Below, in pieces: positions 1-18,094 of a stretch of 30,630 nt of DNA. How positions within the stretch are numbered: the first letter of the stretch is position 1; every line of letters begins with the position of its first letter. The notes beneath the pieces were generated by a model. The model had not been told where the DNA came from, did no database searches, and saw nothing but the letters and a program-made list of their open reading frames with translations. This DNA comes from a virus. A program made the position numbers and the translations under genes. The stretch spans positions 1-30,630 of IMG/VR virus record IMGVR_UViG_3300037493_005297; one strand, written 5' to 3'.

Positions 1-11
1 CGCGTCAGCCC
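1..11. repeat. Left copy of 11-base terminal direct repeat
   Basis: The first 11 bases (CGCGTCAGCCC) are identical to the last 11 bases of the window. The repeat lies about 1.2 kb upstream of the putative small terminase gene, which is where cos sites usually sit. It may be a cohesive-end sequence present at both ends after fill-in, or an overlap left by circular assembly. Confidence 0.6.
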
Positions 12-21
12 CTCGTCCTTT

Positions 22-51
22 TTGCGCTCTCCGAAAAAAATGAACTATAGG
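22..51 (+). promoter_or_regulatory. Candidate promoter for the packaging genes
   Basis: An unusually A/T-rich stretch holds TTGCGC (22-27), an 18-base spacer with a run of seven A, and TATAGG (46-51). The -10 matches 4 of 6 consensus bases and the -35 matches 3 of 6. A start about 7 bases downstream would fall at the ATG at 58, so the transcript would be nearly leaderless. The AGGGA inside the -10 region could instead be the ribosome-binding site of the same gene. Weak evidence. Confidence 0.3.
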
Positions 52-57
52 GAACCC

Positions 58-1215
58 ATGAAGCCTGCCCCCCCTCCCGCCGCCGAGTACGTCGCCGTCG
101 CTTCCCTTCGTCCGTGGGCGAAGAACCCGCGGAAGAACGACCCTGCGGTCAAGGCCGTTGCCGACTCGATCAAGCGGTTCGGCTTCGGCGCGCCCCTCAT
201 CGCCCGTCGCGAGAACGGCGAGATCATCGCGGGGCACACGCGCCTCAAGGCGGCCATCAAGCTCGGGCTCATCGAAGTTCCCGTGCGCTACCTCGACCTG
301 TCGGAGGCCGAGGCGCACGCGCTGGCGCTTGCCGACAACAAGGTCGGCGAGCTCGCCGAGTGGGACGACGCCGCGCTGGCCGACGTGCTCCGCGACCTCA
401 CCGCCGCCGCCGTGAGCGTCGAGGGACTCGGCTTCACCGCGGAGGAGATCGCGGCACTCATCGGCGGCGGCGACGACCCGAGCAACACGCCGGACCCCGG
501 CGCCCCCGAGGTCGAGGAGGGGCCGGCGCATTCGGTGGTGGGGGAGGTCTACGAGCTAGGGCCGCACCGGCTGGCGTGTGGGGACAGCTACGATCGAGCC
601 CTTGCCGCCAAGCTGCTTGGGGACGTGCGCCCCTCCATCCTCATGACAGATCCGCCCTACGGCATCGACGCGAGCAAGATGACGATGGGCTTCGGGCAGT
701 CCAGCAAGGCGCGCACCGACCGGCTCTCGTCCGTCGCGCGGGGGGACGTCGCCCGCCCTGACGTTGGCCCCTTTCTGGCGGCTGCCGAGTGGCAGTGTGT
801 GTGGGGCGGCAACTACTTCGCGGACACCCTCCCGCCTACGAACCACTGGCTGTGTTGGCACAAGAAGAACGACGTGCGGTCGTTCTCCGAGTTCGAGTTG
901 GCGTGGACGAACTACGGGCGGCAGGCGCGACACCTCTCGCACCACTGGAGCGGCAAGGTCAAGGAGCACATCACGCAGAAGCCGCTCCCCGTCATCGTGT
1001 GGGCGCTCCAGCAGTGTCCTGACGAGAGCGCAGGCGCGGCAGTGTATGACCCGTTCGGGGGATCTGGCACCACGCTCCTCGCGTGCGCCGTGACCAACCG
1101 GATCGCGTACCTCTCCGAGCTCTCCCCCCACTACTGCGACGTGATCCGCCGCCGTTGGACCCGGTGGGCGAAGGAAGCCGGTCAGGAACCTGGACCGGGG
1201 GCGCTGGATGGCTAA
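58..1215 (+). CDS. ParB-like nuclease domain fused to beta-class DNA methyltransferase
   Basis: Predicted SAM-dependent DNA methyltransferase (adenine-N6 or cytosine-N4) with an N-terminal ParB/sulfiredoxin-like domain at about residues 10-100, including GHTR at 59-62. The catalytic motif DPPYG is at 198-202 and the SAM-binding motif DPFGGSGTT at 331-339. Catalytic motif before SAM motif is the beta-class order. I chose the ATG at 58 because AGGGA lies 5 bases upstream; in-frame TTG (22) and ATG (40) starts also exist. It is 385 residues, as usual for phage ParB-methyltransferase fusions. The next gene overlaps its end by 8 bases. A likely role is modifying phage DNA before packaging to evade host restriction; target sequence and target base are unknown. 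Confidence 0.9.
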   Translation: MKPAPPPAAEYVAVASLRPWAKNPRKNDPAVKAVADSIKRFGFGAPLIARRENGEIIAGHTRLKAAIKLGLIEVPVRYLDLSEAEAHALALADNKVGELAEWDDAALADVLRDLTAAAVSVEGLGFTAEEIAALIGGGDDPSNTPDPGAPEVEEGPAHSVVGEVYELGPHRLACGDSYDRALAAKLLGDVRPSILMTDPPYGIDASKMTMGFGQSSKARTDRLSSVARGDVARPDVGPFLAAAEWQCVWGGNYFADTLPPTNHWLCWHKKNDVRSFSEFELAWTNYGRQARHLSHHWSGKVKEHITQKPLPVIVWALQQCPDESAGAAVYDPFGGSGTTLLACAVTNRIAYLSELSPHYCDVIRRRWTRWAKEAGQEPGPGALDG

Positions 1216-1693
1216 GCGCGTCACCCGCTCGGAGTCCTCGGCCCTCGAAGACCAGGCGAAGGAGATCGAGAGCCAGGTCCGCAAGTTCGACGCGCTTACG
1301 GCGGCGGCGGTCAAGGCCGAGCAGATGTCGGCGGCGGTCAACGCGGCGGCGAAGGCAACCGACTTACGGAAGTCGCTCGCGCGACTACGAGGCGAGATCG
1401 AGTGCATCGGCCTGACGAGCCCGACCGAGCGCCTGGATCGACTACATCGCGCCGCCGCCGCAGACGGTTCGTGGGTGGCCGCCGCTCAACTCTATCGGCA
1501 GCTCGAAGAGGCGCGCCAGAAGGCGAAGGACAACCAGACACCGGATGCTGATCGAATGACTGACGAGCAGCTCCTCTCGATCATCGTCGCCGCGGTGGCG
1601 TCCATGCCGCCTCAGCACCTCGAGCGCATCGAGGACGCCGTAGAGTTGAGGCGCTCGGGCAAGGTGGTTCGGATGACGAGCGGCGGCGCGTGA
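1208..1693 (+). CDS. Putative terminase small subunit
   Basis: A 161-residue, strongly helical and charged protein. The first half is an alanine/lysine/glutamate-rich probable coiled coil, and the middle contains GSWVAAAQLYRQLEEAR. Small terminases bind the packaging start site and present DNA to the large subunit, and are typically of this size with helical DNA-binding and oligomerisation parts. The assignment rests mainly on position: it lies upstream of the large terminase in a packaging cluster, separated by one methyltransferase gene. It overlaps the upstream gene by 8 bases, and its TGA overlaps the GTG of the next gene. No diagnostic motif is visible, so another DNA-binding protein is possible. 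Confidence 0.5.
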   Translation: MAKRVTRSESSALEDQAKEIESQVRKFDALTAAAVKAEQMSAAVNAAAKATDLRKSLARLRGEIECIGLTSPTERLDRLHRAAAADGSWVAAAQLYRQLEEARQKAKDNQTPDADRMTDEQLLSIIVAAVASMPPQHLERIEDAVELRRSGKVVRMTSGGA

Positions 1694-2865
1694 GCCGCCC
1701 TCGTCTGTTCGCCGAGCTGCCGGCCGGGCTCGCGTCCGTCAGTCTCCGTCTCCACGGCGGGCCGAACTGTCGCCCCCCGATCTCGCGGATGGGCAACAAG
1801 GCCGGGTACGCCGAGGTCATCCTCGCCGCCCTCGGCCTCCGCTCGGGCCAGGGCGCCGGGCGCTACCTATGGGCCGAGGCCGACCCCGACGTGGCCGCGC
1901 TCCTCCGCTGCTACCCTGACGCCGACATGCTCCGACGCGTGGCCGAGATCATCCGCGGGTGGAAGGACGAGGAGCCGCGGGCGCTGTGGGAGCGGCTGCG
2001 GGGGGAGCGGAAGGCGCGTCCTCGGCTCGATGCGGAGGGGACGGCAAGGTGGGTCTACGAACTCGCGCGCACCCATCAGGGCGGTGGGGGGTTCGCCCCG
2101 GAAAGCTACGACGACCCAAGCCGCACCGGATGGCCGGGCAACGGACCGCCGCGCGCCGAGTTGGCCGCCCGCTGCCACCGCCTCGCCGAATACGCCGCCA
2201 TCGTCTCCGGCAACCGCCTCGTCAACATGGCCGGCCCCGCGCTCATGAACACGGGCAACGGGGGCACGCGGCACGGTGGGGAGTTCGCTACGCCGGTGGG
2301 GGATGTGGCGGCGGCGTTTGAGCGGGTGGCGGGGGAGGTGGGTGCCACGCTGTTTCTCCAGCATGGATCGTTCAGCGGGATGGGCATGGACCACGGCATC
2401 GGGAGGCCAGAAGGCGGGCCGGCTGGCAACATGGAGGGGCTGCGCCCGTCGCTCGAAATCGTCCACGATGCAGTCGCGCGCATGGCGAACGGCTGGCCCC
2501 CCGTCCTCGTCCTCCCCCGCATCCCCGAGGCCGCCGACGTGGCCGCCTGGATGGGGACGCCGGGCGACCTGGAGGGCTGCGTCGTCTACATGGATCCGCC
2601 CTACGCGGGGACCACGGTCTACGCGGCGATGCTCGGGCGGGACGAGGTAGTCAGGCACGCGAGGGCCTACGCCGAGCTCGGCGCGACGGTCGCCATTTCC
2701 GAGGCCGAGGTCGTGATCCCCGAGTGGTGCGCCGTCGAGATCACGGCCGGCCGGAAGGGGCAGAAGCGGACCTTCAGTAAACAGCAGGCCGAGTGGGTGA
2801 CGATGAACCGGGAGCCGGCGCATCGTGTCGCGACGCAGCCGGCGCTCTTCGCGGTGAGCGCGTGA
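1690..2865 (+). CDS. Dam-like DNA adenine methyltransferase
   Basis: A 391-residue protein resembling the D12/Dam class of N6-adenine methyltransferases. A glycine-containing segment MGNKAGY (residues 34-40) corresponds to the N-terminal motif of Dam enzymes, and the catalytic motif VYMDPPYAG lies at 299-307, followed by TTVYAAML. SAM motif before DPPY is alpha-class order, opposite to the fusion methyltransferase at 58-1215. The region between (about 100-270) is probably target recognition and is long. The GTG start overlaps the preceding TGA, and its own TGA overlaps the GTG of the large terminase, so the three are likely translationally coupled. Function as an adenine methyltransferase is well supported; specificity is not. 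Confidence 0.88.
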   Translation: MSRPRLFAELPAGLASVSLRLHGGPNCRPPISRMGNKAGYAEVILAALGLRSGQGAGRYLWAEADPDVAALLRCYPDADMLRRVAEIIRGWKDEEPRALWERLRGERKARPRLDAEGTARWVYELARTHQGGGGFAPESYDDPSRTGWPGNGPPRAELAARCHRLAEYAAIVSGNRLVNMAGPALMNTGNGGTRHGGEFATPVGDVAAAFERVAGEVGATLFLQHGSFSGMGMDHGIGRPEGGPAGNMEGLRPSLEIVHDAVARMANGWPPVLVLPRIPEAADVAAWMGTPGDLEGCVVYMDPPYAGTTVYAAMLGRDEVVRHARAYAELGATVAISEAEVVIPEWCAVEITAGRKGQKRTFSKQQAEWVTMNREPAHRVATQPALFAVSA

Positions 2866-4247
2866 GTCTCTCCGCGCTCGCATCCGCCGCGCACGTTCTC
2901 GGGCAACGGGCGCACGCTGACCCGCTCGCGTACTTCCGCCCGACGCCGCCGCAGCTCCGCTTCCTTCAGAGCGCGAGTCAGATCAAGCTCTTTAGGGCCG
3001 GCAACCAGGCGGGAAAAACTTGGGCCGGTGTCGCCGACTGCATTTGGCGCTGTCTCGGGCGTCACCCGCACACGCTTGTCAAGTCGGCGCCCATCGAGGC
3101 CTGGGTCGTCGTCGTGAGCTGGGAGCAGTCGCTGTCGATCCAGGGCAAGATCTGGCAGCTCCTGCCGAAAGACGAGATCGAGTCGGATTGCGAGTACACC
3201 CCGGGCAAGGGCTTCCGTGGAAAAGTGCCCATTGTAAGGTTCAAGAACGGAAGTTTTCTGCGTATCCGAACCGTAAACCAGGGCGTATTAGCGCTCGCCG
3301 GTAGCACAATCGACTTCTGTTTGATCGATGAACCGCCACCTGAGGCCATCTGGTCCGAGCTCGCCGCCCGCGTCCTACGCCAGCGGGGCCGCATCGCGAT
3401 CACGCTCACGCCCATCGGCCTCCCCCTCGGGTGGCTTCGCGCGCTGGTCGACGCCGGTGAGGTCGAGGACATTCACACGCCGCTAACGGTGGAGGGCACG
3501 ACGCCCATTGGCGGGCGCCCGTTGCTCCGTGCCGAGGACATCGCGCGCCTTGAGGCCCAGGTCCTGCCGATGGAGCGAGCCCAGCGCATCCACGGCGAGT
3601 GGGAAGCCGGCTTTACCGAGGGCCGGGTGTTCCTCCAGTTCGATCCGTTGACGATGGTTCGAGACGAGGCGCCGGCCGGCGAGGCACAGATCGCCATCGG
3701 CATCGACCACGGGAAGGAGTCGGGCGCACAGACGGCGGTGATGGTCGCCGTGACCAGGTCGCGCGACAACGAGCCGCGCATCACCGTGCTCGACGTGGTG
3801 AGCTCGAACGGGATGACGACACCGGAGGACGACGCCGCACAGATCCTCGGGATGATCAAGAGGGCCGGGCTTCGGTGGGAGCAGATCGACCGCTGGGTCG
3901 GCGACCGCGCCGCCGTGTCGCGACGGGGCGGCGCGCTCAAGAGCAACGCCCTCCTCGTCCAGGCGTTCGAGAAGACCCTGAGGATCCCTATCGGCACTTG
4001 GCCGGGGAGGATCCATACCGCGTACAAGCCGGCCGGCTCCGTGTTCCACGGGTACCGGGTTCTCCAGGCGAGCATGTTGCGCGGCGATTTCGTCATCCAT
4101 CCGCGTTGCAAGCGTCTGATAGACGACCTCGGCAAGTTCGACGGGCGCGCGGCGAGCGATCACAAGCACACTATCGACGGGCTACGGTACGCGCTCGAGC
4201 TCGTGACCCGCCGGCAGTATCAGCCGCAACTCCTCCGCATCGGATAG
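2862..4247 (+). CDS. terL: Terminase large subunit (ATPase-nuclease)
   Basis: The packaging motor that pumps DNA into the prohead and cuts it. Visible motifs in the 461-residue protein are: Walker A AGNQAGKT (46-53), Walker B CLIDE followed by PPPE (153-160), coupling motif TLTPIG (181-186), and an RNase-H-like nuclease domain starting at GIDHG (280-284) with WVGD (345-348) and DHKHTIDGLRYA near the C-terminus. The chosen start is the GTG at 2862, overlapping the upstream TGA; an in-frame ATG at 2793 would overlap the methyltransferase by 73 bases and lacks support. The bases around 3225-3330, encoding the Walker B region, are visibly AT-richer than the rest of the gene. Confidence 0.95.
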   Translation: MSLSALASAAHVLGQRAHADPLAYFRPTPPQLRFLQSASQIKLFRAGNQAGKTWAGVADCIWRCLGRHPHTLVKSAPIEAWVVVVSWEQSLSIQGKIWQLLPKDEIESDCEYTPGKGFRGKVPIVRFKNGSFLRIRTVNQGVLALAGSTIDFCLIDEPPPEAIWSELAARVLRQRGRIAITLTPIGLPLGWLRALVDAGEVEDIHTPLTVEGTTPIGGRPLLRAEDIARLEAQVLPMERAQRIHGEWEAGFTEGRVFLQFDPLTMVRDEAPAGEAQIAIGIDHGKESGAQTAVMVAVTRSRDNEPRITVLDVVSSNGMTTPEDDAAQILGMIKRAGLRWEQIDRWVGDRAAVSRRGGALKSNALLVQAFEKTLRIPIGTWPGRIHTAYKPAGSVFHGYRVLQASMLRGDFVIHPRCKRLIDDLGKFDGRAASDHKHTIDGLRYALELVTRRQYQPQLLRIG

Positions 4248-4255
4248 GATGACGC

Positions 4256-5803
4256 ATGTACGCCACGATGACAGCTCCGATGCCGCCCGCTCCCGGCAAC
4301 CCCGACGAGGCCCGCCGCGTCGAGCACGAACGCCATCGTTACGCGATGATGGAGGGCCGCTGGCAACCCATCCTCGAGGGCTACATGGAGACGCAGCTCG
4401 GCAGCGTGCGCCGGGCCGCGATGGGTCTGGTCGACATCAGCTACTGTGCGTTGCGGACCACGTCCTACGAGCTCGCCACGCTCTACGACGCCGAGCCCGA
4501 CGTCAAACACAACCAGCTCGCGTCCCCCAACATCGACCGCCTCGTCGGCTCGGCGGGCGCTATCGCGCGCTCGGGCCTCTGGTCGCAGATGTCGCGCTTC
4601 CAGGCGTACACGCTCGCGCTCCGTGAGATGTGGATGCGCGCCGATGTCGAGGACGGGCGCCTCGTCTATCGGCCGGTGCCGCCGCATATGACGATGGCCG
4701 AGGCCGACCCGGCGCGCCCCAACGTGCCGACCTTGTTCGGTGAGCTCCGACTCCGTCAGATCGAAGCGAAGCTGATGTGGACCTTCGAGGTGTGGGACAT
4801 CCGCGACCCCGCGCGCCCGACGTACCGGGTACTCGAGGCGCTCGACGGCTGGCTCGGCGGACGCGACTTGACGCGCCTGGTTCACGGCGCCACCTACGAC
4901 GGCGTCGACTACCCGGCGTCCTGGCGTCGGGCGAACGGGACGCCGATCATCCCGGCGATCCTCTACCACGCGAGCACCTACGGGGACCGCCTCTTCGACC
5001 CGTTCGCAAACATCGAGCTTTACACGGGCTCGCTGCAACTCGGGCTCTTCTATTCGTACCTTGCTCACTGCATCCGTGACGCGTCCTACCCGCAGCGCTA
5101 CGCCGTCGGCGTCCGTGTCGCGGGCATGGACGCGTCGGACCTCGGGAGCCGGGCCGCGCGTAGCGAGGTGACGACGGACCCGACTACGATCCTCATGCTT
5201 GATCCGATCTCCGAGACGAGCCAGGCGATGCTTGGACAGTACCAGGCCGGCGCGGACGTCGAGAAGCTGGAGGCCGTGATCGCCAGTGTGGCTCACAGAT
5301 TGGCGACGGACGCCGGCCTCTCGCCGTCCGAGCTTCAGCGCACGTCGGGCTCCGCGCGCTCGGGCTACGCCATCTCGCTCTCCCAGGAGGGCAAGCGGCA
5401 GGCACAGCGCCGGTACATCATGCAGTTCCGCGCGTCTGACGAGGCGCTCGTGTCGCTGTCGGCGGTCTTGTTCAATCGGTGGACCGAGGCTAACAGCGAG
5501 CCGAGCAACTACCCCGAGGGCGGGTACTCGGTCATCTACCGCGAGATCCCGTTGTCTCCGCAGGAGATGGAGGCGCGTCGTAAGCACGTCCTCGAGATGC
5601 TCGCGGCCGGGCTCATGTCCGAGGTGGACGCGCTCCGTTTCTTCGGCTCGCTGTCGGAGCAGGACGCTATCGCCCAGCTCGCCGCGATCCGCACCATGAA
5701 GGGGGCACCGTCGCCGACGACGGTAGAAGGAGAAAGCCCGCCCCCGGCGACGGCGCCCGCCGCCGACGTATCTCACGCCGAGGCGATGGCGGACGTGGGC
5801 TAA
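4256..5803 (+). CDS. Portal protein
   Basis: A 515-residue protein directly after the large terminase and before scaffold and capsid, the standard place and size for the dodecameric portal that forms the DNA channel at the head vertex. It opens with a long helical region, has a mixed core (for example DPFANIELYTGSLQLGLFYSY), and ends with a low-complexity Pro/Ala/Glu tail after QDAIAQLAAIRTMKG, as many portals do. The ATG at 4256 follows AGGAT by a few bases; a second in-frame ATG lies at 4268. I see no fused head-maturation protease. The assignment rests on position, length and general resemblance. Confidence 0.85.
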   Translation: MYATMTAPMPPAPGNPDEARRVEHERHRYAMMEGRWQPILEGYMETQLGSVRRAAMGLVDISYCALRTTSYELATLYDAEPDVKHNQLASPNIDRLVGSAGAIARSGLWSQMSRFQAYTLALREMWMRADVEDGRLVYRPVPPHMTMAEADPARPNVPTLFGELRLRQIEAKLMWTFEVWDIRDPARPTYRVLEALDGWLGGRDLTRLVHGATYDGVDYPASWRRANGTPIIPAILYHASTYGDRLFDPFANIELYTGSLQLGLFYSYLAHCIRDASYPQRYAVGVRVAGMDASDLGSRAARSEVTTDPTTILMLDPISETSQAMLGQYQAGADVEKLEAVIASVAHRLATDAGLSPSELQRTSGSARSGYAISLSQEGKRQAQRRYIMQFRASDEALVSLSAVLFNRWTEANSEPSNYPEGGYSVIYREIPLSPQEMEARRKHVLEMLAAGLMSEVDALRFFGSLSEQDAIAQLAAIRTMKGAPSPTTVEGESPPPATAPAADVSHAEAMADVG

Positions 5804-5860
5804 CAAGGTTCTCAGACAACAGGCACGGCTCGAAGGGGCCGCCGAAATGAAGGGGTACTG

Positions 5861-6418
5861 ATGAGCGAAGAAGTGAGCACCGAGACGACCGATCAGACCG
5901 CCGCAGCCGCGCGCATCCGGCAGCTTGTCGCGCGTGTCAAGGAGCTCGAGGGCCGCGTGGTCGAGCTGGAGCCCGTGGCGGCGTCGGCCGAGAAGTACCG
6001 CGCTCAAGTGGACGAGGTCAAGGCGGCGTCCAAGGCCGAGCGCGAGGCCCTCCGCGTGGAGCGCGAGATCGCGAGCGCCGGGATCACCGACGCCGAGGGG
6101 ATCGAGTACGTCCAGCACGCCTACGGCAAGCTCGCCGCCGAGGGACGCCCTCCCCTGTCGGAGTGGCTCGCGGCCCCTGACGGGCTCCCCAAGGCGGTTC
6201 GCGCGTACCTCCCGGCCGCTACCCCTACCGCGCCCGCGACGACGACCACGGCCACGCCGGCGGCGCCCGTGGTGCCCTCGCCGCGCCCGTCGACGGGGAC
6301 GGTTCCGCAGGCGCCGAGCGAGCCGCAGGGCTGGAGCGCCGAGGCTATCGCGCGGCTGTCGCCGTCCGACTTCCGCGCCAACCGGGAAGCCATCATGGCG
6401 GCGCTCCGCGTGGGTTGA
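5861..6418 (+). CDS. Putative capsid scaffolding protein
   Basis: A 185-residue protein immediately upstream of the major capsid gene. The N-terminal half is a predicted coiled coil rich in Glu, Lys, Arg and Val (about residues 15-70). A Pro/Thr/Ala-rich linker follows (about 118-150), then a short helical C-terminus (WSAEAIARLSPSDFRANREAIMAAL) that could bind the capsid. This helical-linker-basic-tail layout and position match phage scaffolding proteins, which template prohead assembly and are then lost. AAGGGG lies 5 bases before the ATG. A 57-base gap precedes it, and its stop codon lies within the -35 box of the capsid promoter. Confidence 0.72.
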   Translation: MSEEVSTETTDQTAAAARIRQLVARVKELEGRVVELEPVAASAEKYRAQVDEVKAASKAEREALRVEREIASAGITDAEGIEYVQHAYGKLAAEGRPPLSEWLAAPDGLPKAVRAYLPAATPTAPATTTTATPAAPVVPSPRPSTGTVPQAPSEPQGWSAEAIARLSPSDFRANREAIMAALRVG

Positions 6419-6443
6419 CAGATTGTCGCGGCGCGCGTAGTGT
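6415..6443 (+). promoter_or_regulatory. Sigma70-like promoter of the major capsid gene
   Basis: A perfect -35 box TTGACA (6415-6420) is followed by a 17-base spacer and TAGTGT (6438-6443). The latter keeps the three most conserved -10 positions (T, A and the final T). A start would be expected near 6450. It overlaps the scaffold stop codon and precedes a 96-base leader to the capsid start, so it would give extra capsid transcripts independent of upstream read-through. Confidence 0.6.
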
Positions 6444-6446
6444 GGA

Positions 6447-6491
6447 CGTGCGAGGTCATCACCTCGCACGCGCACGGGGTCGAGCTCCCGT
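6447..6491 (+). promoter_or_regulatory. Two hairpins in the capsid mRNA leader
   Basis: Bases 6447-6456 and 6461-6470 form a perfect 10-bp stem with a four-base CATC loop. A second, weaker hairpin pairs 6474-6479 (ACGGGG) with 6486-6491 (TCCCGT). The first begins at or beside the predicted transcription start, where 5' stem-loops are known to protect abundant mRNAs from 5' decay. No T-run follows on this strand, so it does not look like a terminator. Confidence 0.55.
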
Positions 6492-6528
6492 AAAAAGCGA
6501 TAGGCGCGGGTACACCCTCCAATCTGTC

Positions 6529-6534
6529 AGGAGG
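6529..6534 (+). promoter_or_regulatory. Perfect Shine-Dalgarno of the capsid gene
   Basis: AGGAGG sits 5 bases before the GTG at 6540. This is the strongest ribosome-binding site in the structural region and fixes the capsid start at this GTG. Confidence 0.8.
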
Positions 6535-6539
6535 CCCCC

Positions 6540-7463
6540 GTGGCCAACGAAGTCTATTTTACCGGCCTGTCCGGCAACGCCCGTCTCGCGGCGATCCTCA
6601 ATCAGTTCGTCGTGACCAAGCTCACCGACACCGCCTCGTTGGTCAATCACCCGAGCATCACCCAGCTCCGCAGCATGAACGGCTCCGGCTCCACCGTGGT
6701 CCAGGTGCCTGTCGTGTCCTGGGGCGCGAACGCCATGGCGTCCGTGGCTGAGAATGCCAGCGTGGCCAACACCGCGCTGACCACCACCAACGCCAACATC
6801 ACCATCGCGCGCCAGGCGCTTCGTCGTCAGATCTCCGATCTCGCGATGCTCACCGCCACCGGCATCCCGCTCGACGTGACGCTGGAGAACATCGCGGCCG
6901 ACATGGTCCTCGCGTACAACAAGCGCGTGACCACGATGATCGCGGCGCTGTCCTCGGGATTCTCCGCGTCCGTCGGGACGACCACGGTTGACCTCACCGT
7001 CGCCAACTTCTACGCCGCGATCTTCCGGCTTCAGCTCCAGAGCGCGGACGGCATGTTCACCGCGATCCTGCATCCCCAGCAAGTCAACGACCTCATCTCG
7101 TCCCTCCGTTCCGAGACTGGCCCCGGTCAGTACCTCGCGACGAGCCAGGACCAGGTCCAGGCCAAGGGCCCCGGCTTCCGTGGCAACCTGTTCGGCGTGG
7201 ACATCTTCGCCTCGGCCAACGTCCCCACCGCCAACGCGGGTGACGACTACCTCGGCATGATGATCGCCCCGGGCGCCATCGGTGTCGCCACCGCCACCGC
7301 CGCGCCGATGGTCGGCGCCCCTACCCTGCCGTCGCAGTCGCCCATCGTGGTCGAGCTGGAGCGCGACTCCTCCTCCGGCTCCACCATCGTGGTCGGCAGC
7401 GCCTTCGTTGGCGTCGGCGAGCTGGACGACCTCCGCGGCGTCGGTATCCTGTCCGACTTCTAA
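6540..7463 (+). CDS. Major capsid protein
   Basis: A 307-residue protein expected to form the icosahedral shell, probably with the HK97 fold. It follows the scaffold gene, has its own promoter, hairpin leader and perfect Shine-Dalgarno, and is closed by a terminator hairpin: all hallmarks of the most highly expressed virion gene. Codon choice is strikingly uniform (ACC, AAC, GCC, CTC), unlike its more mixed neighbours. The sequence begins NEVYFTGLSGNARLAAIL, contains a long helix in the middle (VTLENIAADMVLAYNKRV) and ends in a beta-rich region. No N-terminal delta domain or protease is apparent, fitting a separate scaffold protein. The fold is inferred, not seen. Confidence 0.88.
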   Translation: MANEVYFTGLSGNARLAAILNQFVVTKLTDTASLVNHPSITQLRSMNGSGSTVVQVPVVSWGANAMASVAENASVANTALTTTNANITIARQALRRQISDLAMLTATGIPLDVTLENIAADMVLAYNKRVTTMIAALSSGFSASVGTTTVDLTVANFYAAIFRLQLQSADGMFTAILHPQQVNDLISSLRSETGPGQYLATSQDQVQAKGPGFRGNLFGVDIFASANVPTANAGDDYLGMMIAPGAIGVATATAAPMVGAPTLPSQSPIVVELERDSSSGSTIVVGSAFVGVGELDDLRGVGILSDF

Positions 7464-7469
7464 GACCAC

Positions 7470-7511
7470 GCGCCCGCGCTCGTAGGGTTATCCTATGGGC
7501 GCGGGCGCTTT
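7470..7511 (+). terminator. Terminator/attenuator hairpin after the capsid gene
   Basis: Bases 7470-7479 (GCGCCCGCGC) pair perfectly with 7499-7508. The stem continues inward through 7480-7487 and 7491-7498 with Watson-Crick and wobble pairs, closing on a 3-base loop. TTTCGCGT follows, so the U-tract is short. It lies 7 bases after the capsid stop and probably reduces, rather than abolishes, read-through into the neck genes. Confidence 0.72.
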
Positions 7512-7529
7512 CGCGTCCGAAGGAGCATC

Positions 7530-8198
7530 ATGGCGGCGACATTCGGGACGATGGGCGGCGGGCAGTTCGAGGGGCGCGCGGCGGCGCGTCCGCAGGTCAT
7601 GCGCGAGTTGGTACGGCTTGAGCCGTCTACCTCGTTCTGGTTCATGCACCATCCCGCGCGCTGGATGTTGGTCGCTGGCGAGTGGCTCCCGTGGCTGTCC
7701 AGGCTCGCCGCAGACCCGGGCGTTGCCAACGTCGACCAGAGCGGCGACACCGCCGCGGCCGAGGTGGCCAAGCGGCGCAAGGGGTGGACGATCATCCCCT
7801 GGGACGCCGAGCCGGGCGGCTACGTCGTCGCCTACGACGGTGTCGCGGGCACGGTACACCTCTCCAAGTGGGAGACGCCCAAAATGGTCGCCGGCCAGAC
7901 GCGCATCCAGGGCGACTCCGACGGCTACTGGGCCTTCTGCCGTCGCCTCGTCGTTGACGGCTACATTGACCTCCCCGACGCCGACTTCATTACGGTTCAG
8001 ATCGAGCAGCAGGAGAAGGTCGTCAACGAGTGGCGCGAGAAGGCCCCGAGCTCGCCGTTCCACCGCGAGGCCCTCCCCAACGAAGAGGCCACGCTTGAGC
8101 GTATGCGCGCCGCGATGGAGCGCCTCTACGCCCCCGTCGTCACCGACGACGAGGCGCCCGCCGCGCCCGCGCCTAAGCCCCGTCGGGGGCGCGCGTGA
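7530..8198 (+). CDS. Hypothetical virion/neck protein
   Basis: A 222-residue protein that I do not recognise. The N-terminal half is mixed, with aromatic clusters (FWFMHHPARWMLVAGEWLPWL, WTIIPWDAEPGGYVV). A central part contains SKWETPKMVAGQ and DSDGYWAFCRRLVVDGYIDLP. The C-terminus is helical and ends in a Pro/Ala/Arg tail. A clear AAGGAG lies 4 bases before the ATG. It is the first gene after the capsid terminator, where phages usually carry head-decoration or head-completion genes; no specific role can be claimed. Its TGA overlaps the GTG of a small downstream gene. Confidence 0.8.
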   Translation: MAATFGTMGGGQFEGRAAARPQVMRELVRLEPSTSFWFMHHPARWMLVAGEWLPWLSRLAADPGVANVDQSGDTAAAEVAKRRKGWTIIPWDAEPGGYVVAYDGVAGTVHLSKWETPKMVAGQTRIQGDSDGYWAFCRRLVVDGYIDLPDADFITVQIEQQEKVVNEWREKAPSSPFHREALPNEEATLERMRAAMERLYAPVVTDDEAPAAPAPKPRRGRA

Positions 8199-8341
8199 GC
8201 GAGCGCGCCGGCTATCGCGAGGCCATGGAGCGGATGCAGCGGCAGCTCCGCGACTCGGGCATGGCGAGCGACAAGGCCCGCAAGGTGGCCGAGGACCAGG
8301 CGCGCCGTGCCGATCAGAAGCAATCCGATAAGGGCAAGTAG
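8195..8341 (+). CDS. Small charged helical protein (48 aa)
   Basis: A 48-codon frame beginning with a GTG that overlaps the previous stop and ending in TAG 9 bases before the next ATG. The product is almost wholly helical and charged, with a motif like MASDKARKVAEDQARRADQK. It fills exactly the space between two real genes in the coupled GTGA style used throughout this phage, which supports its being translated. Small basic helical proteins of this sort occur among phage head genes, but I cannot assign a role. Confidence 0.62.
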   Translation: MSERAGYREAMERMQRQLRDSGMASDKARKVAEDQARRADQKQSDKGK

Positions 8342-8350
8342 GGGGGATCG

Positions 8351-9109
8351 ATGTCGCTCGCCGAGACTGTCTACACCGCCCGCTTTCGGTCGTCGGAGAC
8401 GCTCGAACGCGGGCGTACCCAGACGATCACCTGCCCTACCTCGAGGGCGGGGGCGACGGCGACTCCATCGAGCGGCACGGTCACGATCTACCGGCCCGAT
8501 CAGACCGTGCTCGTCACGGGCGCGGTGACGGTGGCGAGCATCGCCACGTTCTCGGTCACGGGCGCGACGACGACGGCCGAGGCCCTCGGCGAGGGGTTTC
8601 TGATCGAGTGGGTGCTCGTCATGCCCGACGCCGTCACCCATACGTTCCGGCAGGACATGGCCCTCTGTCGGCGAACGCTCTACGGAGTCGTCTCCCAGGA
8701 CGACCTCACGCAGCGGCACAGCGACCTCCCGTCTCTGCTCGGCGCCGCCGCGTCGTATCAACCCTACATTGACGAGGCCTTCTTCACGATCTCGAATCGC
8801 CTCATCGGCGCGGGCCGGCGGCCGTACCTTGTGATCCAGCCGAGCGCGCTCCGCGAGTGTCATCTGATGCTGGCGCTTCACCTCGTCTTCATTGACTACT
8901 CGACCTCGGCCGGCGACGGCGGGCGGTGGCAAGCCCTCGCCGCTCACTACCTGTCGACCTATGAACAGGCCTACGGCGCGCTCAAGTTCACGTATGACGA
9001 GGCCGACGACAACCGCGTCGACCCGACGAAGAAGAAGTCGGCGAGCTCGCAGATTTGGACGAACGGCCGCGGCCTCTCGCACGCGCCCTGGACTCGCTTT
9101 GGCAACTAA
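8351..9109 (+). CDS. Putative head-tail connector/adaptor protein
   Basis: A 252-residue protein. The first part is beta-rich and Thr/Val/Ser-rich (for example SSGTVTIYRPDQTVLVTGAV). The rest is largely helical, including YQPYIDEAFFTISNRLIGAG, ECHLMLALHLVFIDYS and LAAHYLSTYEQAYGALKFTY. The helical half resembles head-tail adaptor proteins that bind under the portal. Position after capsid and before tail genes agrees. GGGGGGA precedes the ATG by a few bases. The assignment is by pattern and position only. The next gene probably starts within its last codons. Confidence 0.6.
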   Translation: MSLAETVYTARFRSSETLERGRTQTITCPTSRAGATATPSSGTVTIYRPDQTVLVTGAVTVASIATFSVTGATTTAEALGEGFLIEWVLVMPDAVTHTFRQDMALCRRTLYGVVSQDDLTQRHSDLPSLLGAAASYQPYIDEAFFTISNRLIGAGRRPYLVIQPSALRECHLMLALHLVFIDYSTSAGDGGRWQALAAHYLSTYEQAYGALKFTYDEADDNRVDPTKKKSASSQIWTNGRGLSHAPWTRFGN

Positions 9110-9542
9110 GACCGTCCGCGAACTTCGCGAGGACGTGACCACGCGGATCCTCACGCTGACGGGCTGGCGTGAGTCGCGCGTGCTCCCGGAGACGTTCGGG
9201 CGCGATGCCGACAGCATCGCCCACAAGGCCTTCATAATTCACGCGGTGACGACGAAAGACCTCCGGCTCTACCGCGGCAAGCCCGCCGAGGGCACGCTGA
9301 CCGAGACGGACCTCGAGGTGCGCTTCTCCTGGCGTATGGTGCCGAAGGACATGAGCACGTCCTACGACGACTCCCTCGACGGCGCCCAGGCCGTGATCAA
9401 CGTGCTCATGGTCTACGACGCCACCTGGCCGAGCTCGTACAAGGTGCAGCTCATCGAGACGTCGCAAGCCGCCACCGATACCGGTGAGTGGGTTATCGGG
9501 TCGATACTCTTCCGCGTCGTCCACAATCTCCCGCTCCAATAG
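9099..9542 (+). CDS. Putative neck / tail-completion protein
   Basis: A 147-residue protein if started at the TTG at 9099, which overlaps the previous gene by 11 bases. A much longer in-frame extension upstream reads as a shadow of the preceding gene, and no ATG or GTG lies near, so the start is uncertain. The sequence begins ATKTVRELREDVTTRIL and contains a beta-rich C-terminal half (YKVQLIETSQAATDTGEWVIGSILFRVVHNLP). Its place between the connector and the tail tube fits a tail-terminator or head-closure role, but no family motif is visible. Confidence 0.65.
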   Translation: MATKTVRELREDVTTRILTLTGWRESRVLPETFGRDADSIAHKAFIIHAVTTKDLRLYRGKPAEGTLTETDLEVRFSWRMVPKDMSTSYDDSLDGAQAVINVLMVYDATWPSSYKVQLIETSQAATDTGEWVIGSILFRVVHNLPLQ

Positions 9543-9549
9543 GTGAACC

Positions 9550-10044
9550 ATGGCTCAGTCAACTGTCATCAAGAACTTTCGCGATGGTACGCTGGTTTTC
9601 ACCGACAACACCGGCACGCCGCTGAGCTTGCCTATCGTCTACGAGGCGGGCGACTTCTCGATTGACAATCTGAACGAAGGCCTTGTCGAGACGACTGCCT
9701 ACCTGGACCGCGGCGAGTTCGCGACCCTCCGCAAGACCAACCGCGTCTTCCCGTCGTTCAGCTTCACCGCGCACTTCACGGACCTCTCCGACGCCACCGA
9801 CAAGCTGCTCTACGACCTCGCCCGCAAGACCGGCGCCTGGGCGGTTGGTGTGTCGACGCTCGGCGCCAACGCCGACGCGATGACCTACAAACTCACTTGG
9901 ACGTGCGAGGGCACGAATTTCGGCGACACCGCCGACCACATCCTCATCCTCAACGATGTGCGCGTCACCGTCTCGATCTCGGAAGGCGACCCCAACTCCT
10001 TCAGCGTGTCGGGCATCGTCTACGGCGCGATCACGGCGACCTGA
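9550..10044 (+). CDS. Putative major tail tube protein
   Basis: A 164-residue, beta-rich protein placed just before the tail-chaperone module and the tape measure, the standard place of the tail tube subunit that stacks as hexamers around the tape measure. The sequence shows alternating hydrophobic strands (FRDGTLVFTDNTG, NRVFPSFSFTAHF, MTYKLTWTCEG, VRVTVSISEGDPNSFSVSG), typical of tail-tube beta sandwiches. AGGTGA precedes the ATG. The TGA overlaps the ATG of the next gene. Strong by context and composition, though no motif is diagnostic. Confidence 0.75.
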   Translation: MAQSTVIKNFRDGTLVFTDNTGTPLSLPIVYEAGDFSIDNLNEGLVETTAYLDRGEFATLRKTNRVFPSFSFTAHFTDLSDATDKLLYDLARKTGAWAVGVSTLGANADAMTYKLTWTCEGTNFGDTADHILILNDVRVTVSISEGDPNSFSVSGIVYGAITAT

Positions 10045-10409
10045 TGTCGACGCGCGTAGTCCAGCTCGGGGCGCACTCGGTGACGCTCCGCACCCCGCCC
10101 TCGTTCGCGCTGGCGCGCGTCGTGTCGTTGGCGCTGTCGCAGTCGCCTCTCCTCGGCCTCGGCGCGGCCCTGGGCGCGTGCTGGGGCGGCCGTCCGCTCA
10201 AGGCCACACTCAAGGCGCACCAGCACGACGCGTGCGCCTACGGGGCCGCTGTGGTGGACGAGCTCCACGCGCTCGGTTTTGCGGAGGCTGAGATCTGGAC
10301 GGCGGCGGGTGCGGCTGTCGAGCTCCTCACGGACTCGACGCCGACGGAGGCGGGCGTAGCAGCCGCGGCGGATTTTACCGGGGCGCCGGTGGCGGCCTCG
10401 ACGCCGTAG
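10044..10409 (+). CDS. Putative tail assembly chaperone (gpG-like)
   Basis: A 121-residue, helix-rich protein between tail tube and tape measure, the conserved site of tail assembly chaperones that hold the tape measure protein before tube polymerisation. The ATG overlaps the previous TGA. Its C-terminal tail is Ala/Thr/Pro-rich. In lambda-like phages this gene is extended by a -1 ribosomal frameshift into a second frame; here the next short gene lies precisely in the -1 frame, and that frame is open from 10292 onward. Assignment is by context. Confidence 0.6.
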   Translation: MSTRVVQLGAHSVTLRTPPSFALARVVSLALSQSPLLGLGAALGACWGGRPLKATLKAHQHDACAYGAAVVDELHALGFAEAEIWTAAGAAVELLTDSTPTEAGVAAAADFTGAPVAASTP

Positions 10410-10411
10410 CG

Positions 10412-10591
10412 ATGGAGATCGGGCTCACCTACTGCGGCGAGCCTGACGCGTTCTACGCGTGGGATGTCGAGGTCCAAGAACGCGTCCTCGGGTGGTGGCG
10501 TGCCAAGCACACGCCGCCGCCCGCGGCCAAGCGGGGCAAGACCGCCGCCGAGGGGGACGCCGCGGCGTTGTCGTTCTGGGGGCTCGGATGA
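10412..10591 (+). CDS. Small gene in -1 frame: possible gpT-like chaperone extension (59 aa)
   Basis: A 59-codon frame starting at ATG 10412, two bases after the previous stop, and ending at a TGA that overlaps the next ATG. It encodes MEIGLTYCGEPDAFYAWDVE followed by a Trp-rich helix and a Pro/Lys/Ala tail. No Shine-Dalgarno is evident, so it is made either by reinitiation or by -1 frameshifting from the previous gene. Short acidic-aromatic second frames of this type are typical of the T part of G/GT chaperones. Confidence 0.55.
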   Translation: MEIGLTYCGEPDAFYAWDVEVQERVLGWWRAKHTPPPAAKRGKTAAEGDAAALSFWGLG

Positions 10592-11154
10592 GCGTCACCG
10601 CCACGGTCGACACGCGCAAGCTTGAGCAAGTGATGAGCGAGCTCCTCGTCCTCGTCGTCGGCGAGGTGGGGCGCACGTTGGTCGACATCGCCGACGACGC
10701 CGAGCACAACGCCGAGGGCAAGTGGTACACCCAGGTTCGCCGTCGCACCGGGAAGACGGGCACGCTGAAGACCGAGCTACGACGTGGGAGCGGCGGCGAC
10801 AAGCTTGAAGCCGTCGTGAGCTCCGAGAGTGAGACAAGCAAAGCGACGTATTTAGTGCATCGCCCCGGCCCGTTGTCGATGCGAAAGAAGAAGGTGCCGG
10901 CGTCCGAGTACGCCGAGATCATGTCCTACTTCCGCAAGAACGGACGGCTACCCGAGGGCATCGTCGCGCGTCGGATAGACGACACGGGCCAACCGATCCA
11001 ACTCTCTCGCGAGGTTCGAAACCCGCTGGCGTCGGACGGGAAGAACCTGTGGAACGAGCTGGCCCGCAAAGAGGGAACGAAGATCATCCTCGCGCGCGCC
11101 GATGACCTCGACGCCGCGATGCAACGCGCCGCCGATAGACTGCGACAAGGATAG
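10588..11154 (+). CDS. HK97 gp10-like putative tail component
   Basis: A 188-residue protein starting at an ATG overlapping the previous TGA; an upstream in-frame extension is a shadow of the preceding small gene. It begins VTATVDTRKLEQVMSELL, an opening like HK97-gp10-type proteins, and contains WYTQVRRRTGKTG. The latter resembles the segment around a conserved basic turn in that family, which acts in tail completion at the neck. It is unusual to find such a gene after the chaperones rather than before the tail tube, so this is tentative. The region around 10830-10860 is locally AT-richer. Confidence 0.5.
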   Translation: MSVTATVDTRKLEQVMSELLVLVVGEVGRTLVDIADDAEHNAEGKWYTQVRRRTGKTGTLKTELRRGSGGDKLEAVVSSESETSKATYLVHRPGPLSMRKKKVPASEYAEIMSYFRKNGRLPEGIVARRIDDTGQPIQLSREVRNPLASDGKNLWNELARKEGTKIILARADDLDAAMQRAADRLRQG

Positions 11155-11162
11155 GGGGGAGC

Positions 11163-13031
11163 ATGGCTACCGTAGATCTCACTGTCGCCGCCGACCTCTC
11201 CGCGCTTCGTCGGCAGCTTGCCGAGATCCCTGGCCTCTCCGCGGACGCCGCGACGAAGATGTCGGCCGAGCTCAACAAGTCGATCAAGAGCGCAGAGAAG
11301 GCCTCGCTAACCGCGGCCAAGGCCTCGAAGGCGGCGGCCGAGGGCGCCAAGGCCTCGGGGCGCGCGGCGGCCGACGCGCTCGACACCGCCGCCGCATCGG
11401 CCACGCGCTTCGGGGACAAGGCCGGCGCCGTCGGCTCGAACGCGGGCAAGCTCGCCGGCATCCTTGACATGCTCGTCCCCGGCCTGGGTGGCGTGGCGCG
11501 TGGCGTGGCCGATGTTGCGGACACGGCCGAGGTGGCCTCTGTCGCCACCAAGGGCCTCGGCGTGTCGATGTCCTCGACGCTCGCCGTCCTCGGGCCCGTC
11601 GCTATCGCCGTCGCCGCGTTGGGCGCGACGTATGTGTACCTGTCTTCAGTTCTGGACGAGGTCGAGGTCAAGAACAAGGCGGCCACGGACGACGCGATTG
11701 CTCAAGCCGAGGCGACGAAGAAGGTTCGCGACCGTAAGCAAGAAGTGTCCGATCTCTTTGAGACTTCCGGGGACGCGGCCAAGGCCGAGGGCATCGCAAT
11801 CCGCAAGGCAAACGAGGCTACAGACGCGTCGTTTAGAGACGCGCTCGCGCGCGCCAAGGACAGCGTACAGCAGAAGAAGGACGCTAAGGCCCAGGCCGGT
11901 CAGGCGTTGAATTCTCCAGAGCTGCAAGCTGCCCAGAAGATCTTAGTAAGCCTCGAAGAAGAGATTGAGCTTACGAAGACCAAGGGAGAGCTCGTCATCA
12001 CTCAGCAGTTCGCGGCACAGAAGGCGGCTAAAGAGACGGTCGAAGTCGAGCTTGCCGCGGCCAAAGCTGCCGGCGCCCGCGCCGCGGCGGAAGCCGCTCT
12101 CGTCGCAGAAGAAGCCGCCCGCGCCGAGGTCGAGCGCGGCATCCTCGAACAGACGCAGAACTACCGCTCGGTACTCACGTCTCTTCAGGAGACGACGCGC
12201 GCGACGAACGACGCGCAACTCGAGGGCGCCGCCGCGATTGAGGCGTCGTTGGCACGGCAGATCGAGAAGGTCAACGAGCTCGCCGCGGCCAAGGTTGAGA
12301 GCGGCGTGGGCGGCACCGAGGAGATCCTTGCAATCGAGGCCACGCGCCTCGAGGCGGTGACGGCGCTCCAGGCTAAAGCCGCCGAGGACATCGACGCTAT
12401 CTATGCGGCATCGTCAGAGAAGCGCACCAAGCAGCGCGGAGAAGAGCTCGCGGCCGAGGCCGCGTTCCACGCACAGAGGACGCAGGCGACGGCGTCTGCT
12501 ACGTCGGACCTGCTCGGGACCACGTCGGACGCGTTCGCCGCGGCGGCCGAGGAGCAGAGCAAGACGAACAAGGATGCCGCTATGGCGATGTTCGCCGCGT
12601 CGAAGGCCGCGGCCGTAGCGCAGGCTGTGGTCAACACGGCCTTGGCGATCAGCTCCGCGAACACGCTCCCGCCCCCGGCCAACTTCATCGCGATGGCCGC
12701 CGCCGGTGTGTCGGGCGCGGTGTCGCTCGCGGCTATCGCCTCGTCCCCGCCGCCGAGCTTCAACGACACGCCTGGCGTTCAGATGATGGGGCAGCGCGGC
12801 AACGTGTCGCTCGCGAGCGGCGACTACTTCGCGGCGGCCCGCTCGCCTACGGAGCTGCAACGCCAGGTGGGCGCGACGGCCGGCGGGGGCGTCTCGATCC
12901 TTCAGGTGCGCCTCGGCCACAAGGTGCTCGATCAGTCGGTGGCGCGCACCATCCAGGAGGGCGGGCGCCTATCGCGTGAGATCTCAACTCGGACGAAGAC
13001 CGGCACGACTGGACACCGGAGCCGCGCGTGA
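11163..13031 (+). CDS. Tape measure protein
   Basis: A 622-residue protein that is almost entirely helical and Ala/Lys/Glu-rich. It has a hydrophobic segment at about 135-165 (MSSTLAVLGPVAIAVAALGA), a long coiled-coil middle and a second hydrophobic part near 520-560 (FIAMAAAGVSGAVSLAAIA). These are the signs of a tape measure, which sets tail length and passes through the tube during infection. At about 0.15 nm per residue the tail would be roughly 90 nm, short for a siphovirus. GGGGGAG precedes the ATG. Part of the coiled-coil section (about 11690-12010) uses more A/T-ending codons than its surroundings, suggesting mosaic exchange. The TGA overlaps the next GTG. Confidence 0.85.
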   Translation: MATVDLTVAADLSALRRQLAEIPGLSADAATKMSAELNKSIKSAEKASLTAAKASKAAAEGAKASGRAAADALDTAAASATRFGDKAGAVGSNAGKLAGILDMLVPGLGGVARGVADVADTAEVASVATKGLGVSMSSTLAVLGPVAIAVAALGATYVYLSSVLDEVEVKNKAATDDAIAQAEATKKVRDRKQEVSDLFETSGDAAKAEGIAIRKANEATDASFRDALARAKDSVQQKKDAKAQAGQALNSPELQAAQKILVSLEEEIELTKTKGELVITQQFAAQKAAKETVEVELAAAKAAGARAAAEAALVAEEAARAEVERGILEQTQNYRSVLTSLQETTRATNDAQLEGAAAIEASLARQIEKVNELAAAKVESGVGGTEEILAIEATRLEAVTALQAKAAEDIDAIYAASSEKRTKQRGEELAAEAAFHAQRTQATASATSDLLGTTSDAFAAAAEEQSKTNKDAAMAMFAASKAAAVAQAVVNTALAISSANTLPPPANFIAMAAAGVSGAVSLAAIASSPPPSFNDTPGVQMMGQRGNVSLASGDYFAAARSPTELQRQVGATAGGGVSILQVRLGHKVLDQSVARTIQEGGRLSREISTRTKTGTTGHRSRA

Positions 13032-14806: not shown

Positions 14807-14809
14807 CCC

Positions 14810-17800: not shown

Positions 17801-18094
17801 TCGGGCGCGGACGGCCTCACGGCTATTGCTGACACCGGGCGCACGCTCGCCGGCATCATCGCCCAGACGGGCGGGGCCGTGATCCCGGTCGTCGTCCTAC
17901 CGGCCATCAAGCAACAGACGAGCGCGCCGGGGACCACGGGCATCCAGCTCCTCGATCCCGAGGCGCACCTTTATGGCCGCATCGTGACGCAGACGCTTCG
18001 GGTCGACAGTGACGCGAGCGTCCGCGGGCAGGAGCTCCGTGACCCCGGCGAGATGGTCCAGATCTCCACGGTCATCGTAGAGGAGGAGCTCTAA
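14810..18094 (+). CDS. Large tail protein with sialidase-type Asp-box propeller
   Basis: The largest gene (1094 residues) and a likely receptor-binding tail spike or tip protein. Three Asp-box motifs (S-x-D-x-G-x-x-W/F) are visible: SDDGGATW (194-201), SSDGGARF (251-258) and SVDRGATW (371-378). Their spacing in a beta-rich domain at about 100-450 suggests a BNR/sialidase-like propeller. Asp-boxes are structural turns, not catalytic residues, and I cannot confirm the Arg triad and Glu/Tyr needed for sialidase activity, so the domain may only bind glycan. The middle (about 470-800) looks like beta-sandwich modules, and the C-terminus (GRVRLFGRQYSRGRGL onward) may anchor to the baseplate. A weak AGG precedes the ATG. 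Confidence 0.72.
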   Translation: MAKTQPTGDLRGVLIPEAGTLTATYTATTQAGPRAGAVVPDQTTGLLLHASGTLDDNSEAAQGGTMGITTLTGGNVGTAAVRWAFSGDTLRSWDPPVMISGWEYIDRSTVASRYVAPHVIRRASDGLPVVVVTKNTNDVVVNYADSLGVWTAVTVEATSAQTRACLVDLPSGRLLCLYVVAASSTSTQVRMSYSDDGGATWTTGASSALINAITVASSAVVRIRAVYLAGQISMLIHYVDTGLDKVYQYASSDGGARFVTLGIVGTSDRGYPDMVVSQGLIFVALLRYAAAFSPVTIQPWVYRLSSASQPISSIEGVEAATGGGSEVFGTYAGTAFTAGELALLAMDDGTLYVYGVDFAGTGTGEVITRVSVDRGATWDHNWRNSHGDVNGTVVHFSGINTTAWRDLSVAPERGRAVMAHATLGTVTGDYTSLGAAYLGGWSTVGMPAPGSQEIWEVAGWDDTYVPIDLPDDSGPTWTRSFTGAATEVLGSGGVTITSTFADRGQYLATPVTTGYEADGVILEYAVLVTSGTATAEVRISDGTNAYVTRVDATTTGVDLRDVTAGTSIGTVTVDCTKGVVIRIAVAKAAGAWSTNVGKVRAWVRVDGPYTAGPVNHGPRQDREWTSIGTTSALQSVASGTNRIRWGSVTLACTSTWRSFLFTAGRETAGNNLDSAAGTARGHLVTPAGSPVHLVDGLRVNGVDGPTVAGDTFTTTADFSYPIKAINPAFSPSPRRVWRSTRDSSDHDIVLTGVDLGARSGDLYGLYLAGCNWKTATLYRDSTATNKVCDIDLSAQLTGMDFVRNRGLVYPVSGAGIGMPFYASAQRMVGATVEYVSTLAGNPVVVRTVAGNTGGAWVAATAVGSYASTRLDLESYETTDPTSGVLTLRMPSAVILFDALVGTDTLMLRIPAQVTPDDYFQIGTMIVGRVRLFGRQYSRGRGLTFTPAYELAETRSGTRRGRVLGPTRRAMEMSWDDGVDTSGLNTPGSAPDYYGLGYSGADGLTAIADTGRTLAGIIAQTGGAVIPVVVLPAIKQQTSAPGTTGIQLLDPEAHLYGRIVTQTLRVDSDASVRGQELRDPGEMVQISTVIVEEEL

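Follow-up and report, generated by a model that had tools for sequence, protein, structure and literature searches.

A conserved pseudoknotted RNA leader predicted at the 5' end of a phage capsid mRNA

A phage needs few proteins in such amounts as that of its capsid, whose level in double-stranded DNA tailed phages is usually ascribed to promoter strength and the ribosome-binding site. Stem-loops at the 5' terminus that stabilise bacterial messenger RNAs (mRNAs), those of ompA and papA, were reportedly set out by Emory, Bouvet and Belasco in 1992, and in phage T4 the gp32 protein acts on a leader pseudoknot of its own mRNA in an autoregulatory manner. Here we consider a 30,630-base virus record (IMGVR_UViG_3300037493_005297, below called the window) and within it the leader of the major capsid gene, which carries a hairpin (P1) followed by a compact core where a stem P2 encloses an apical stem P3, the loop of P3 pairing with the strand that joins P3 back to P2 (the joint). 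On the evidence of sequence comparison we lean to the view that the capsid mRNA begins with a conserved RNA leader acting in cis, in which P1 would shield the message and the core would set its translation. The folded RNA is shared by many uncultured phages, and it probably controls the amount of capsid protein made.

A preliminary description of the window had read from its letters a TTGACA/TAGTGT promoter, a 10-base-pair (bp) stem, a second and weaker hairpin and an AGGAGG, and all of these are present, the gene downstream also being a capsid gene as was supposed (Pfam Phage_capsid_4 at 31.8 bits, the cut-off being 27). The pattern TTGACA-N17-TAGNNT occurs once on the two strands of the window and in 0 of 100 shuffles, and the same is so for the promoter and AGGAGG taken together. 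A generic sigma-70 scan of positions 1-15000 (at least 9 of 12 matches to TTGACA/TATAAT and at least 4 of 6 per hexamer) reported no promoter, and missed this one because TAGTGT matches TATAAT at only 3 of 6 positions. Across relatives a sigma-70-type arrangement of TTGACA, 16-18 nucleotides (nt) and TANNNT is found in 87 of 89 unique leaders of sufficient length, 7 loci cut at the 5' side being left out, and in a larger set a promoter is recognised in 92 of 100 unique leaders. In loci L156, L299 and L338 the leader RNA is intact and the −35 box not recognisable. In some relatives the DNA near the −35 and −10 boxes holds operator-like palindromes, GTGACACGTTGACACG...CGTGTCAC and GATCGTAT...ATACGATC (L356, L369-L371, L374, L375; L352).

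Just past the −10 box lies a perfect 10-bp stem, CGTGCGAGGT/ACCTCGCACG (6447-6456/6461-6470, loop CATC), which is the only perfect stem in the window of at least 10 bp with a loop of 3-8 nt. Shuffles of so GC-rich a window give similar stems (mean 0.6 and maximum 6 in 40 shuffles) and so the stem alone is not remarkable; it is through its position and conservation that it exceeds chance. In all 92 distinct leaders with a promoter P1 sets in at a near constant distance from the −10 box, +6 nt in 77 and +7 nt in 15, with a purine at nucleotide 7 after the box (G in 88, A in 4) and with P2 adjoining P1 at no more than 1 nt. What varies is P1 itself, in length (5-8 bp) and in sequence (22 arm pairs), a G.U pair preserving it in 17 of the 92 leaders. 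When the halves of P1 were swapped among 52 distinct leaders none of 2000 trials reached the observed value of 5.58, the best giving 4.54. Because the spacing is constant, the sequence free and the swaps never match, P1 seems to be an RNA stem tied to the expected transcription start, which from the spacing and the purine at nucleotide 7 we infer to be at about 6449-6450. Folding by free energy alone yields P1, P2 and P3 in RNA begun at 6450 and loses P2 in RNA begun at 6447, so the outer two to three pairs of the 10-bp stem are probably outside the RNA; nucleotides 6447-6448/9 would then be upstream of +1 and the RNA stem would have some 7-8 bp. The earlier placing of a 10-bp stem at the transcript 5' end thus agrees with the predicted start for the inner pairs and probably not for the outer 2-3 nt. 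The accompanying idea, that a 5' stem at +1 protects the mRNA, fits the geometry of P1, which at the predicted start is that of a 5'-terminal protective stem; what it overlooked is the conserved core.

The second hairpin, read at 6474-6491 in the window and first described as weaker, is the best-conserved part of the leader, the apical stem of a core that elsewhere is found without P1. RNAalifold recovered P2 and P3 without guidance from 36 unique cores; with the loop-joint pairs included 96.5% of cells are paired, and the covariation score of the core exceeds those of all 500 shuffles and of all slides. The third P3 pair varies between GC, AU and UA. For one loop-joint pair 24 cores have GC, 4 have AU and 8 an unpaired A.C; for another, 34 have CG and 2 (L278, L336) have GC. 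Within the window lineage loop and joint do not covary strictly, CAA loops occurring also with AGCGA, and loop-joint covariation becomes clear only when lineages are compared: in 36 leaders outside the window lineage UCGC goes with GCG, UCAC with GUG and UCGU with ACG (Fisher 2.7e-6 and 8.5e-5). One alignment of all lineages was dropped since MAFFT misplaces P1 and P2, and swap tests were used for that reason. Exchange of the 3' side of P2 among 46 leaders gave at most 4.52 against 5.39 observed (0/10000), an earlier P2 swap test on 20 distant leaders having given 1/10000. The joint motif for the Fisher test, the P3 anchors in the swap and alternative-pairing tests and the ends of P2 were placed by hand. 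The core is conserved, structured and aptamer-like, as expected of a riboswitch domain.

Capsid-anchored searches of IMG/VR, in which the leader was ignored, gave 63 relatives, and in 61 of these loci the strict core lies no more than 110 nt upstream of the capsid start; the two exceptions (L099 and L100, on the same contigs as L302 and L303) have a core that by eye is diverged, with E=0.7 for L302 from the model R2 described below. A second capsid search took the best 80 of 241 loci, of which 4 cut at the 5' side were left out, and among the 76 with enough upstream sequence 56 have the strict pattern and 20 are variants by eye. Further capsid-profile scans covered the best 80 of 347 and the best 80 of 188 loci, with 44 leaders examined from the latter; as only the best 80 loci per scan were taken, farther relatives are not covered. 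A motif-anchored scan gave at least 119 stretches, and among the matches listed the motif is followed by a capsid-like N terminus in all 116 new viral loci, and each of the 111 open reading frames (ORFs) of at least 100 amino acids (aa) is a match to the window capsid, with identities of 45-96%. A host origin of the RNA was rejected, since in the genome collection the same motif gave three hits only, without P1 or capsid context, which were taken as chance; L219-L221 were left out of the counts as chance hits. With few exceptions, the core was met in the leaders of homologous capsid genes.

Model searches extend the range of the core. R1, built from the 36 unique cores, gives 67.7 bits for the copy in the window, where its next-best match has E=0.26. 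It gives one best match apiece on 16 relatives' records (E from 5e-13 to 0.004), picks up distant leaders of capsid genes (E 5e-5 to 6e-4 for L362-L364, 0.02-0.04 for L340, L356 and L374) and misses leaders of the L304 type. In the record IMGVR_UViG_3300044729_001179 the core stands at both ends (L069/L102), as terminal redundancy would give. Capsid profiles led by other members took the sampling beyond the window lineage, to phages with a G+C content of 40-70%, in many of which the −10 box is of the TATAAT type. Their leaders lack P1 and keep the core, in which P2 takes many different sequences, P3 is present, the loop resembles UCGCA and the joint contains AACAGCG. R2 was built from 15 leaders, none of them AT-rich; in a held-out check on 35 AT-rich loci every one gave a core match at its capsid leader, with E<=0.002 in 32. 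Over 48 sources it reported 46 matches, 43 at capsid leaders, with L400 and L418 coming from contigs already found by a scan for the UCGCA-form pattern; that scan gave 23 stretches, five being capsid leaders of three kinds and 18 not leader-like and taken as chance. No R2 match was reported in three phage records or in L450 and L452, capsid relatives in which the core is not recognisable. Two architectural variants were seen, a tandem pair of leader cores ahead of one capsid gene in L314 (1334-1456) and in L322 (about 1410-1466) an extra hairpin apparently inserted in the joining strand of the core.

How the core might bear on translation is suggested by its complementarity to the ribosome-binding region. 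In an AT-rich set (n=27) the 5' strand of the core pairs with bases that overlap the ribosome-binding site or immediately precede it, at −10.7 kcal/mol against −6.7 for shuffled sequence, no swap in 10000 was as good, and L431, L417, L409 and L402 form this helix with different sequences. The alternative helix in this one AT-rich lineage suggests a two-state translational switch. Among distant GC-rich leaders the 3' strand of P3 takes the pairing role, better than shuffled in 18 of 22 (swap test 25/5000). The corresponding pairing is better than shuffled in 75 of 83 leaders of the window lineage, where swapping has no effect and so the complementarity may be a chance one of CUCC with GGAG. Two other pairings were set aside: that of the P2 3' strand downstream beats shuffles in 49 of 60 leaders (a random 60 of 98) but direct duplex energies do not, and it was not relied on; a CCTCC/GGAGG hairpin over the Shine-Dalgarno sequence as a general device belongs mainly to the window clade, most of the other leaders that were read lacking it.

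Table 1. Elements of the capsid locus in the window
Feature	Positions	Strand	Basis
ORF upstream of capsid, in scaffold position	5861..6418	+	No family match
Promoter: TTGACA 6415-6420, 17-nt spacer 6421-6437, TAGTGT 6438-6443	6415..6443	+	Read directly
Transcription start (predicted), 6-7 nt past −10 box	6449..6450	+	Constant spacing, purine at nt 7 in 92/92 leaders
P1: arms 6449-6456/6461-6468, loop CATC	6449..6468	+	Sequence reading, comparison, RNA folding
P2, core-enclosing stem: CGCGC 6469-6473 with GCGCG 6504-6508	6469..6508	+	RNAalifold unaided; swap tests 0/10000
P3, apical stem: CGGG 6475-6478/CCCG 6487-6490, loop GUCGAGCU	6475..6490	+	Paired in 100% of the 36 unique cores
Pseudoknot: loop UCG 6480-6482 with CGA 6498-6500; extra loop-joint pair C6485-G6503	6480..6503	+	Covariation
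CCTCC 6516-6520, complementary to GGAGG 6530-6534	6516..6534	+	Window clade
Shine-Dalgarno AGGAGG	6529..6534	+	Read directly
Major capsid protein, 307 aa, GTG start at 6540	6540..7463	+	Pfam Phage_capsid_4; PHROGs major head protein
17-bp hairpin directly past capsid stop codon, then TTTCGCG	7470..7508	+	−41.2 kcal/mol for 75 nt

The elements of Table 1 lie in the gene order terminase, ORF in the scaffold position, capsid, and the −35 box contains the TGA stop codon (6416-6418) of that ORF. The hairpin past the capsid gene lacks the T run of an intrinsic terminator, its stem being followed by TTTCGCG, and is absent from the list of the terminator scan; without a T run it may serve to stabilise the 3' end or to terminate transcription in an atypical way. 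Capsid 3' hairpins with changed stems are seen by eye in 81 unique 3' flanks of the window lineage, and of the lineages folded nearly all have strong ones, often below −30 kcal/mol, with longer T runs behind the hairpin in some other lineages. The loop, GUGGUUANNCUAC or GUGCUUAUGGUAC, is conserved too, a feature that termination alone would not call for. A pairing of the leader joint with this loop was considered and rejected, as no covariation was apparent by eye in the relatives read. Given its own promoter and a 3' hairpin the capsid gene looks like a separate transcription unit. This fits the earlier proposal of a separate and higher capsid expression as far as sequence features go, and the alternative pairing with the ribosome-binding region suggests translational control. 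Matches to this region are few: none at the DNA level among phage records, and at the protein level three phages only, at about 30% identity. The phage collection holds no close cultured relative, the capsids of DSL-LC06, HTVC112P and HTVC026P being 27-32% identical and without an R2 match, with a scaffold-to-capsid gap of 15-30 nt. Elsewhere in the window an ORF at 22-1215 fuses a ParB-like N-terminal domain with a DNA methyltransferase (PHROG 498, Pfam N6_N4_Mtase, ParB_N), and a 1094-aa ORF at 14810-18094 has a weak BNR-repeat match under the Pfam cut-off.

Comparison of relatives speaks for the promoter, P1, P2, P3, the loop pairing, the link to the capsid gene and, in one AT-rich lineage, the alternative helix. 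We infer from these the start site, the protection, the switching and its trigger, and the pathway would run as follows. The promoter would fire transcription at about 6449-6450 and the first nucleotides would fold to P1 with hardly any unpaired 5' end remaining, P1 most likely guarding that end against 5'-dependent decay. Next the compact core would form, with P2 around P3 and base pairs between the loop of P3 and the joining strand, and in its folded state it would most likely keep the ribosome-binding site free, strands of the unfolded core being able to pair with the ribosome-binding region. The hairpin past the stop codon would close the capsid unit. A leader of two modules, P1 protecting and the core switching or tuning translation, is favoured because the geometry of P1 is protective, the core is conserved and core strands pair with the ribosome-binding region, the switching being the less certain step. 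A wider proposal, which we put forward tentatively, is that of a new viral regulatory RNA class, a 5'-terminal pseudoknot in many tailed-phage lineages of widely differing base composition that would sense a cell or infection signal and switch capsid translation by exposing or masking the ribosome-binding site, P1 being a cap-like clamp added in one lineage.

Several observations count against the two-module leader. Eight of 100 unique leaders are without a recognised promoter. P2 is almost invariant within the window lineage, the second loop-joint pair is A.C in 8 of 36 cores and G.A in L356, L369, L370 and L470, and a cruder general loop-joint swap test is weak (164/10000). The swap and covariation statistics also ignore kinship among related sequences. 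In RNA that reaches 30 nt into the gene P2 is not favoured and is of low probability in most leaders, as computed with RNAfold, whose model does not include the pseudoknot. The alternative helix varies by lineage, using the 5' strand in AT-rich leaders and the P3 3' strand in distant GC-rich ones and having no swap support in the window lineage, and 8 of the 27 AT-rich leaders have no advantage over shuffles at the 10% level.

The main rival is a pure 5'-end stabiliser, in which P1 and core only block decay of the pyrophosphohydrolase, RNase E or RNase J type and no switching occurs. A P1 that sets in at the predicted start in all 92 leaders whatever its sequence, the core close to the −10 box in most lineages read and a 3' hairpin bounding the capsid gene would all suit such a role. 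So would two results from other systems: the Bacillus subtilis RppH is reported to need at least 2 unpaired 5' nucleotides (PMC3997798), and a viral exonuclease-resistant knotted RNA can stop the bacterial RNase J1 in vitro (PMC5760640). Since a conserved loop and joining strand are not needed for stabilising, a plain stabiliser seems insufficient, and it leaves the lineage-specific complementarity to the ribosome-binding region unexplained; we judge it possible but on balance unlikely. Autoregulation, with the capsid or another virion protein binding the core to repress or release capsid translation, would account for the linkage of core and capsid gene, yet loop and joint stay recognisable while capsids drop to 33-43% identity, which fits a host-conserved partner or the RNA acting alone better and makes this reading improbable. 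A cis-acting antiterminator RNA of the HK022 put type, modifying RNA polymerase near the promoter, might be looked for in promoter-proximal stem-loops at a late transcript start, but not with a strong hairpin directly after the capsid gene, nor would pairing with the ribosome-binding region be expected of it, and it is very doubtful. Least credible is that P1 is a DNA operator for a repressor and no RNA element, for although a perfect dyad overlaps the predicted start, there are 22 different arm pairs and the G.U pairs of 17 of 92 leaders keep RNA pairing while breaking DNA symmetry.

With the two-module leader as the preferred reading, its standing among described RNAs can be considered. Rfam 15 at gathering scores gave 0 matches in the whole window and in the loci of 14 relatives, and looser Rfam searches gave weak matches only, such as GP20-b. 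In the literature searched, mostly as titles and the starts of abstracts, no description of this leader RNA was found, and the available portions of PMC2864571 and PMC8040213 do not mention the capsid. A structured mRNA leader is thus known as a kind, and it is this fold, its placement at +1 and the tie to the capsid that were not found in Rfam 15 or in that literature. A covarying pseudoknot at the capsid mRNA 5' end in phages from AT-rich to GC-rich would be a dedicated RNA layer of control, one that reporters could test without phage culture, and could serve in laboratory bacteria as an off-the-shelf 5' element that makes mRNAs stable or switchable.

The GP20-b RNA family (RF03003, cis-regulatory by its Rfam listing) does not include the capsid leader, which scores 12.4 bits against a gathering threshold of 36.2 (E=3). 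With flavivirus exoribonuclease-resistant RNAs the leader has in common that it is a viral knotted RNA, and it differs in topology and in sitting at the mRNA 5' end. Riboswitch-type translational switches resemble it in a conserved compact fold and, in some lineages, an alternative helix at the ribosome-binding region, but the capsid leader has no known ligand or Rfam match, stands upstream of capsid genes and is represented in the genome collection by the three chance hits only. In the T4 gene 32 leader, too, a phage mRNA has a pseudoknot at its 5' end, with a different fold and a different gene. As with the ompA and papA stem-loops, a stem-loop would lie at or within a few nucleotides of the (here predicted) 5' end of the mRNA of a gene of high expression; unlike these, the capsid leader continues into a sequence-conserved pseudoknot core and belongs to phage capsid genes.
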